Below the pieces are notes generated by a model that saw only the letters and a program-made list of their open reading frames with translations, had not been told where the DNA came from and did not search any database. Positions 13,692-16,284 of a stretch of 54,671 nucleotides of DNA are shown here, in pieces. Origin of the DNA: Bacillota bacterium (GTDB taxonomy: Bacteria > Bacillota > Clostridia > Saccharofermentanales > UBA5734); contig JAKPNJ010000098.1 in NCBI GenBank assembly GCA_029548445.1, positions 1 to 54,671 of the forward strand, in the 5' to 3' direction. The translations under genes and the position numbers were made by a program. Positions within the stretch are counted from its first letter, which is position 1, and every line of letters begins with the position of its first letter.

Positions 13692-14024
13692 ATGAACCCC
13701 TTCGCCCTTTTCCTTACGACAGCGACACCCCAGGAAGTGGATCCCATTACCTCTCTCCTGACCATGGTGGTCCCCTTCGGCCTGATGTTCGCCTTCCTCT
13801 ATTTCTTCATGATCCGTCCCCAGAGAAAGAAGGACAAGGAACTCCGGGCCCAGATCAACTCGATGATCGTGGGCGATGACGTGGTGACCATCGGGGGGAT
13901 CATCGGCCGGGTCGCCAACATCAAGGATGATGAGATCACCATCCAGACCAGCGTCGCCAAGACGCTCGTTACGGTTCGGAAAAGCGCCATCAGCCAGGTC
14001 CTGAAGAAAATCTCCGACGAGTGA
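13692..14024 (+). CDS. yajC: Preprotein translocase accessory subunit YajC
   Basis: The protein is 110 aa with AGGAGG before the ATG. One N-terminal transmembrane helix (about residues 22-42) ends in the family motif FFMIRPQRKKDKE. A small cytoplasmic domain follows with VGDDVVTIGGIIGRV. Family role: membrane partner of SecDF-YidC in Sec-dependent export. Position between tgt and the SCIFF precursor matches a conserved clostridial neighbourhood. Between its stop and scfA, CGGTCC and GGACCG can form a small stem without a T-run. Confidence 0.95.
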   Translation: MNPFALFLTTATPQEVDPITSLLTMVVPFGLMFAFLYFFMIRPQRKKDKELRAQINSMIVGDDVVTIGGIIGRVANIKDDEITIQTSVAKTLVTVRKSAISQVLKKISDE

Positions 14025-14091: not shown

Positions 14092-14238
14092 ATGTCCCAC
14101 ATCCGGACCGTCGCGACACCCAGCGTGAATCCGCCCAAGGGCGGCGTCGCCTGCGGCGAATGCCAGACATCCTGCCAGTCCGCCTGCAAGACCAGCTGCA
14201 CGGTGGCCAACCAGAAATGCGAAAATCCCCATCGCTGA
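14092..14238 (+). CDS. scfA: SCIFF ranthipeptide precursor (six cysteines in forty-five)
   Basis: This is a 48-aa open frame that is easily missed because of its size. Six cysteines fall at positions 21, 24, 28, 32, 36 and 43. The core CGECQTSCQSACKTSC (residues 21-36) followed by TVANQKCE is the highly conserved SCIFF signature. GAGGAGGG lies just upstream of the ATG. Family knowledge: SCIFF peptides are near-universal in Clostridia; the partner radical SAM enzyme installs thioether links from cysteines to non-alpha carbons (ranthipeptides), and a signalling role has been proposed. The neighbour at 14366 is the maturase. No dedicated transporter or protease is adjacent; YajC/Sec is next door, but that is only context. 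Confidence 0.95.
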   Translation: MSHIRTVATPSVNPPKGGVACGECQTSCQSACKTSCTVANQKCENPHR

Positions 14239-14263
14239 TTCCGGTCGTTCGGGCCGGAACGGC

Positions 14264-14336
14264 TTGAATCCATCGGGAATTGGAGTCCGAAGGGAGCGAA
14301 GGGCGCCGCCCGGACGCTCCCTTTTGAATCCATCGG
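14264..14336. repeat. 13-bp direct repeats flanking the scfA-scfB hairpin
   Basis: TTGAATCCATCGG occurs at 14264-14276 and again at 14324-14336, exactly 60 bp apart. The copies bracket the 14292-14321 hairpin. Both lie in the noncoding gap between precursor and maturase. They could be protein- or RNA-binding sites or the trace of a local duplication. Confidence 0.6.
14292..14325 (+). terminator. Terminator or attenuator between scfA and scfB
   Basis: GGGAGCG (14292-14298) pairs with CGCTCCC (14315-14321), with an inner GGGC/GCCC stem, and TTTT follows. The T-run is short, so partial read-through is likely. That would keep the precursor message more abundant than the maturase message, as in many RiPP operons. 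A smaller stem, TTCCGG/CCGGAA, directly follows the scfA stop. Confidence 0.55.
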
Positions 14337-14365
14337 CGGCATTGCCCTGAACCGGAGGCAATATC

Positions 14366-15769
14366 TTGCTCCACCTGTATGAACTCCATGGGGACCGACT
14401 CGCCTTTGACAGCGAGAGCGGTGCCCTCCACCTCCTGGATCATGTGTCATGGGACGTGCTGTCCGCCTGTGCAGCGTCCGGCGGTCCACGGCCGGACCCT
14501 GTGCGGATGGCGGCCCTGGAACGGAAATTCGGATCCGAGGCAGCGGCCTGCCTTGACGAGGCGAATCGCCTGGTCGCGGACGGAAGCCTGTTCCGGCCAG
14601 CGGAGCAGGTGGATTTGTCGCACCTGTATCCCGAAGATCCGCCGGTCAAGGCCATGTGCCTCCATGTATCCCACGACTGCAACCTGCGGTGTGCCTACTG
14701 TTTTGCCGGAACCGGCGACTTCGGCACCGGTCGGCGCCTGCACATGACCTCGGAGACGGGCCGGATGGCGGTCGATTTCCTGATCCGGGCCTCCGGACGC
14801 CGTGTCAACCTGGACCTGGACTTTTTCGGCGGCGAGCCTTTGCTGAACTGGCCCCTGGTCGAGGAACTGACCCGGTACTGCCAGGTCCGCGGGACGGAAT
14901 CCGGCAAGCGAATCCGGCTGACCCTGACGACCAATGCGACTCTCCTCGACGAGAGAAAAATGGCCTTTCTGGACGAGCATATGGACAATGTCGTCCTGAG
15001 CCTGGACGGACGGCCGGAAATCCACGACCGCATGCGCCCCCGGGCCGGCGGACAGCCTTCCTGCCATGACGTAACGGAACGGATCCTTGCGTTCCTCCAG
15101 CGCCGAGGGTCCCGCCAGAGCTATGTCCGGGGCACCTTCACACGGATGAATCCGGATTTCGACCGGGATGTCCTGCATCTTGCGTCCCTCGGCATCACCG
15201 CCATCTCCATGGAGCCCGTTGTGCTGCCGGACGGCCATCCCCTCGCCCTGGGACAGGACGACCTGCCTGCCGTCGAGGCGGCCTATGACCGCCTGGCCCT
15301 GGCCATGGACCGGATGCGGCAGGAGGGAAGGGGTTTCCGGTTCTTCCATTTCGACATCGACCTGGAAGACGGGCCCTGCGCCCTGAAGCGGCTCAAGGGA
15401 TGCGGCGCGGGGTGCGAATATGTCGCCGTGACACCGGATGGAGACATTTACCCCTGCCACCAATTCGTGGGCGAGACCCCGTTCCGGCTCGGAACCCTGC
15501 GGGACGCCATGGCGTCGGACAATCCCCGATCCACCCTGGATCCGTCCCTTCGCCGCCGGTTTGCCGACCTGCTGCCGGCATCCCGTCCGGAATGCCTGTC
15601 CTGCTTCGCCCGCCGGTTCTGTTCCGGCGGATGCGCGGCCAATTCATACCACGCATCCGGCGACATTCGCGGCCTGTACCCGCTGGGATGCGCCCTTCAG
15701 AAGAAACGGCTGGAATGCGCCCTCTGGCTGAAGGCCAGGGAAGGGTGCCACAAGGAGGAATCCGCATGA
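14366..15769 (+). CDS. scfB: Radical SAM SCIFF maturase (thioether-forming)
   Basis: The protein is 467 aa, in the family range. It starts at TTG, supported by GGAGG 7 nt upstream and no better start. An N-terminal RRE-like peptide-binding region (about residues 1-95) precedes the radical SAM core, whose cluster cysteines are C105, C109 and C112 in CNLRCAYC. FFGGEPLLNW and LSLDG are typical. The C-terminal SPASM/Twitch region carries many cysteines: CGAGC, YPC, CLSCFARRFCSGGC and a late GCAL. Family role: forms Cys-derived thioether bonds in the SCIFF peptide encoded upstream, under anaerobic conditions. It overlaps the next gene by 4 nt (ATGA), tying a carbonic-anhydrase-like protein to the maturase. 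Confidence 0.95.
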   Translation: MLHLYELHGDRLAFDSESGALHLLDHVSWDVLSACAASGGPRPDPVRMAALERKFGSEAAACLDEANRLVADGSLFRPAEQVDLSHLYPEDPPVKAMCLHVSHDCNLRCAYCFAGTGDFGTGRRLHMTSETGRMAVDFLIRASGRRVNLDLDFFGGEPLLNWPLVEELTRYCQVRGTESGKRIRLTLTTNATLLDERKMAFLDEHMDNVVLSLDGRPEIHDRMRPRAGGQPSCHDVTERILAFLQRRGSRQSYVRGTFTRMNPDFDRDVLHLASLGITAISMEPVVLPDGHPLALGQDDLPAVEAAYDRLALAMDRMRQEGRGFRFFHFDIDLEDGPCALKRLKGCGAGCEYVAVTPDGDIYPCHQFVGETPFRLGTLRDAMASDNPRSTLDPSLRRRFADLLPASRPECLSCFARRFCSGGCAANSYHASGDIRGLYPLGCALQKKRLECALWLKAREGCHKEESA

Positions 15770-16284
15770 TCTTCGCATTCAGGGGCAGGACTCCCGTTCT
15801 CTCGGACGGCGTCTACATCGCCGAAACCGCCGCCGTCGGCGGCGATGTCACCATCGGCCCGGACAGCTCCGTCTGGTTCGGTGCCTCCGTACGCGGAGAC
15901 GAGGCGCCCATTCACATCGGCGCCGGCAGCAACATCCAGGACTCCGCGTCCGTCCATTGCGACGAGGGGATCCCGTGCGTGATCGGGAACCATGTGACGG
16001 TCGGCCACAATGCCGTCCTCCACAGCTGCCGCGTCGGGGACGGCACCATGATCGGCATGGGAGCCATCGTACTGAGCGGCGCCGTGATCGGTCAGGGATG
16101 CGTCGTGGCCGCCGGCAGCGTGGTCCGTTCCGGTACGGTGGTTCCGGACGGCATGCTGGTGGCCGGGGTTCCGGCGGTCGAGAAAAAGGCCGTCGATGGG
16201 GAGACCCGGCGCGCCAATCTCGCCAACGCGGAGGAATACATCCGCCTGTCCCGGGAATACGCCCTCGAACACCCGGATTTCTAG
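15766..16284 (+). CDS. Gamma-carbonic anhydrase-like hexapeptide-repeat protein
   Basis: The protein is 172 aa of left-handed beta-helix hexapeptide repeats. The three metal-binding histidines of the gamma class are present in SVHC, VGHN and LHSC. The start FRGRTPVLSDGVYIAETA and the end AGVPAVEKK match the YrdA/PaaY-like branch. Members of this branch bind zinc or iron, and only some have carbonic anhydrase activity, so activity is not assured. AAGGAGG lies before the ATG and the start overlaps the scfB stop, so it is probably translated from the maturase message. Whether it has anything to do with ranthipeptide maturation is unknown. Confidence 0.9.
   Translation: MIFAFRGRTPVLSDGVYIAETAAVGGDVTIGPDSSVWFGASVRGDEAPIHIGAGSNIQDSASVHCDEGIPCVIGNHVTVGHNAVLHSCRVGDGTMIGMGAIVLSGAVIGQGCVVAAGSVVRSGTVVPDGMLVAGVPAVEKKAVDGETRRANLANAEEYIRLSREYALEHPDF

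Follow-up and report, generated by a model that had tools for sequence, protein, structure and literature searches.

A SCIFF Ranthipeptide Gene Pair with a Conserved Inter-gene Hairpin, Kept in a Clostridia Order in Which SpoIVA and Spo0A Were Not Found

The scfA-scfB Locus

We analyzed a window of 54,671 nucleotides (the whole stretch of DNA considered here) from a Clostridia genome. Within it a gene for a small peptide is followed on the same strand, at a distance of 127 nt, by a radical SAM gene (table 1), and this pair is kept in relatives. Taken whole, the locus is almost certainly a standard SCIFF (ranthipeptide) pair.

Table 1. Features at and around the SCIFF locus (positions in the window).
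Feature	Position	Strand	Description	Basis
yajC	13692..14024	+	preprotein translocase subunit	TIGR00739, 82 bits (cut-off 44); family-wide upstream neighbor by synteny
scfA	14092..14238	+	SCIFF ranthipeptide precursor, 48 aa, six cysteines	TIGR03973 and PF13165 above cut-off
Hairpin	14289..14326	+	hairpin resembling a terminator; short T run	folding; same element in relatives' scfA-scfB gaps
scfB	14366..15769	+	radical SAM/SPASM SCIFF maturase, 467 aa, TTG start	TIGR03974, 502 bits (cut-off 425); CteB match
Carbonic anhydrase-like gene	15766..16284	+	gamma carbonic anhydrase-like hexapeptide-repeat protein	NF050158, 152 bits (below cut-off of 250); PF00132 above cut-off

Profile searches recover the peptide with both SCIFF models, TIGR03973 (69.2 bits, cut-off 50, E = 2e-19) and PF13165 (71.3 bits, cut-off 27, E = 6e-20). 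Its gene starts with ATG and has a purine-rich ribosome-binding site, GAGGAGGG. The leader comprises residues 1-20 and the core begins at Cys21; reading the sequence places the six cysteines at 21, 24, 28, 32, 36, and 43, the conserved SCIFF spacing also found in relatives. The core CQSACKTSCTV is identical in all SCIFF peptides picked up by cysteine spacing alone, while the leader is variable; this invariance rests on the spacing-only search. Column counts from a separate pattern search are circular at residues 28-36, which that pattern itself demanded, and carry no weight here. Extra spacing matches at two loci (L079 and L080) are Cys-rich frames out of context and were left out. At three other loci (L032, L039, and L067) the peptide was not found in the DNA examined, and in two of these scfB lies near a contig end. 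A PDB search with the ScfA peptide gave no match, a common outcome for a query of 48 residues.

The maturase passes TIGR03974 (502.3 bits, E = 1e-150) as well as TIGR04085 (63 bits, cut-off 27), and scores slightly under the gathering score of Pfam SPASM (20.5 against 21.5 bits). Its sole close solved structure is CteB (PDB 5wgg/5why; E = 2.4e-126), with residues 1-459 of 467 aligned. The alignment places an N-terminal RRE domain in ScfB; the radical SAM motif CX3CX2C reads CNLRCAYC at residues 105-112, with the cluster cysteines as in CteB, and nine cysteines of the SPASM region line up as well. Two other assignments were rejected, namely an ScfB-related orphan maturase (NF040492, 415 bits, far under its cut-off of 855) and PapB (NF047865, 224 bits, far under 340). 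The genome of the window holds one SCIFF peptide and one ScfB, and a second, weak TIGR03974 match belongs to another radical SAM protein. These results bear out the first-pass annotation of the locus, which had described a peptide of 48 residues with exactly six cysteines followed by a radical SAM/SPASM enzyme of 467 residues, and had proposed a search against SCIFF models, in which both proteins score above the cut-offs. It also noted how readily small genes of this sort escape annotation, a point made in PMC5300114 as well.

In the family of the window the gene order is dapA, queA, tgt, yajC, scfA, scfB, (gamma carbonic anhydrase-like), (HD protein), dnaG, rpoD, where the bracketed genes are present only sometimes. 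Outside the family, tgt, queA, or yajC still lies upstream of scfA in some lineages. The closest loci are from Clostridia MAGs, with ScfB identities of 50-59%. The start of the carbonic anhydrase-like gene overlaps the scfB stop, and a gene of this kind adjoins scfB in distant Clostridia too (L019, L031, L061, L068, and L078). This neighbor probably stands outside the SCIFF pathway.

A Conserved Hairpin and the TTG Start of scfB

The gap between the two genes contains a predicted hairpin, GAAGGGAGCG-AAGGGCGCCGCCCGGA-CGCTCCCTTTT, and the surrounding 46 nt have a folding energy of -25.8 kcal/mol (z = -3.4). A standard terminator scan, with a loop limit of 3-8 bases, missed this structure, which was revealed by folding and a separate scan. 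One fixed criterion detects the element in 80 of the 93 distinct gaps between scfA and scfB, where dinucleotide shuffling predicts 4.8; of 85 stretches lying immediately 5' of scfA, 2 carry it. The scan in relatives uses a consensus criterion, and the T run at the hairpin of the window is short (TTTT). The hairpin sequences vary between lineages, so conservation in the gap applies to the element rather than to its letters. In two loci (L085 and L095) scfB, with a TTG start, begins right at the end of scfA, leaving neither gap nor hairpin; the hairpin is thus common but not universal in SCIFF loci. Among the open papers searched, we found no description of a terminator in SCIFF loci. The conserved inter-gene hairpin is offered here as a concrete regulatory feature, open to easy test.

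The first-pass annotation had instead called attention to the TTG start of scfB, which should keep enzyme output low relative to the peptide. The start itself is credible, since residue 1 of ScfB coincides with the starts of relatives and with the start of the CteB match, and a GGAGG ribosome-binding site lies immediately 5' of the TTG. Its supposed effect on enzyme level fares less well. Most of the window's family starts scfB with TTG, and almost all other Clostridia of the set use ATG, so the codon looks like a lineage habit. TTG is generally a weaker start codon, and its use by most of the family would suit a start codon that, in place of the hairpin, mainly sets the level of the enzyme. 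Nevertheless, the GGAGG site before it is strong, and the hairpin is kept even in other Clostridia where scfB starts with ATG, and we therefore consider this explanation improbable. As a candidate means of keeping peptide in excess of enzyme, the conserved hairpin is preferable to the TTG start.

Distribution in Clostridia

In a class sample of 196 Clostridia genomes, the SCIFF peptide is present in 169 and a maturase above cut-off in 167. By counts read by hand from the presence tables, 166 genomes have both, three the peptide only, and one the maturase only; a near-complete genome, G117, has the peptide with ScfB above cut-off absent. The two genes lie on different contigs in nine genomes (G061, G089, G112, G129, G134, G156, G174, G191, and G205) and 85 kb apart in G142, and non-adjacent genes in several lineages suggest pairing without linkage.

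Within the order of the window, the peptide is kept in 30 of 39 genomes. Both peptide and maturase are missing in all four sampled genomes of one genus (g13; G027, G032, G035, and G037), which is a natural loss, comparable with SCIFF-carrying neighbors. The maturases of the window's family score about 500-577 bits to TIGR03974, and most of the class sample about 625-800. Five genomes of the same order (G023, G026, G031, G034, and G029) reach about 720-760 bits, and two ScfB classes inside one order suggest either transfer or fast divergence.

This wide distribution weighs against an antimicrobial, bacteriocin-like role for the peptide, which would fit a cysteine-rich RiPP whose maturase is related to sactipeptide maturases. 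A product of that kind is hard to reconcile with a nearly fixed core in 169 of 196 genomes, and the broad spread of SCIFF has been held to count against an antimicrobial role (PMC8326336). Moreover, the direct neighbors of the pair (tgt, yajC, the carbonic anhydrase-like gene, the HD protein gene, and dnaG) include no exporter or immunity gene. We regard an antimicrobial role as very improbable indeed.

Relation to Sporulation and Agr

The first-pass annotation held that the family is known and its physiological role unsettled, a fair description, as reviews report effects of SCIFF on quorum sensing and sporulation in only two solventogenic or acetogenic clostridia (PMC8102284, PMC8326336). 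In one of these reviews, disruption in C. beijerinckii is described as lowering sporulation genes and raising agr (work of Chen 2020, cited in PMC8102284), from which the peptide could be taken for a signal in a sporulation or Agr quorum-sensing circuit. The order of the window speaks against extending this further. Profile searches of the genome of the window and 38 relatives found SpoIVA in 0 of 39 and Spo0A above cut-off in 0 of 39, the best Spo0A matches covering the receiver domain only, and AgrB occurs in one of the 39, which is not the genome of the window; SCIFF is nonetheless retained there at the frequency given above. The assembly of the window's genome (G000) is a draft, 97% complete and in 359 contigs, so that a single missing gene could be a gap, and the absence pattern across 39 genomes is firmer than G000 alone.

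In the class sample, a clear Spo0A is missing in 41 of 169 SCIFF carriers and in 4 of 27 non-carriers (Fisher p = 0.33, kinship ignored; counts read by hand from tables, five intermediate scores taken as present). SCIFF does not track Spo0A across the 196 genomes. Because SCIFF is kept in an order in which SpoIVA and Spo0A were not found and AgrB almost never, and because the class sample gives no association with Spo0A, the general role of SCIFF cannot be one specific to sporulation or Agr. In addition, the core is nearly constant across species, unlike species-specific signals. The signal reading is thus unlikely as a general role, and we give it little credence, although somewhat more than an antimicrobial function.

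We give rather less than even odds to a scenario in which SCIFF serves an ancestral Clostridia housekeeping function independent of sporulation and Agr, its core being near-completely conserved, while a terminator between scfA and scfB, kept in place and not in sequence, sets the ratio of peptide to enzyme. The value of the locus lies in its host, from a Clostridia order that keeps SCIFF and in which the sporulation genes tested were not found, and AgrB almost never. This order offers a natural setting in which to seek the general function of SCIFF apart from the two reported roles.

Proposed Pathway and Comparison with Known Systems

Transcription probably reaches scfA from the side of queA, tgt, and yajC, and the majority of transcripts would probably stop at the hairpin. 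With such partial termination, read-through, or a separate scfB promoter, would yield less scfB transcript, so that peptide would exceed enzyme. The ScfA leader is most likely bound by the RRE domain of ScfB, whose radical SAM cluster most likely removes a hydrogen from the side chain of a threonine. With a SPASM cluster assisting, ScfB would then join Cys32 to Thr34 or Thr37 through a thioether; such a link is expected because of the identity with the studied pairs. The mature peptide probably carries out a general, conserved function with no tie to sporulation or Agr.

Judged by its sequence, the scfA-scfB pair of the window is an ordinary new copy of a known family, correctly named, and what it adds to the known picture is the conserved inter-gene hairpin and a constraint on function. 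It shares with CteA-CteB of Clostridium thermocellum (TIGR03973, TIGR03974; PDB 5wgg, 5why) the numbering of the core Cys and Thr residues, the maturase domains, and the cluster cysteines. Cys32, Thr34, and Thr37 of CteA are numbered as in ScfA (PMC8326336), and whether Thr34 or Thr37 is the acceptor in CteA is disputed between reports (PMC8326336). ScfB differs from CteB in an extra cysteine at position 350, where CteB has His, and in the TTG start of its gene. Tte1186a-Tte1186 of Caldanaerobacter subterraneus is a pair of the same type, in which Cys32 and Thr37 match ScfA in numbering (PMC8326336); its product is known, whereas that of the pair in the window is predicted. Freyrasin/PapB ranthipeptides (NF047865) resemble the proposed SCIFF pathway in that a radical SAM/SPASM enzyme forms thioethers to non-alpha carbons of the acceptor. 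However, freyrasin has six Cys-Asp links and a different precursor, unlike the SCIFF peptide of the window.
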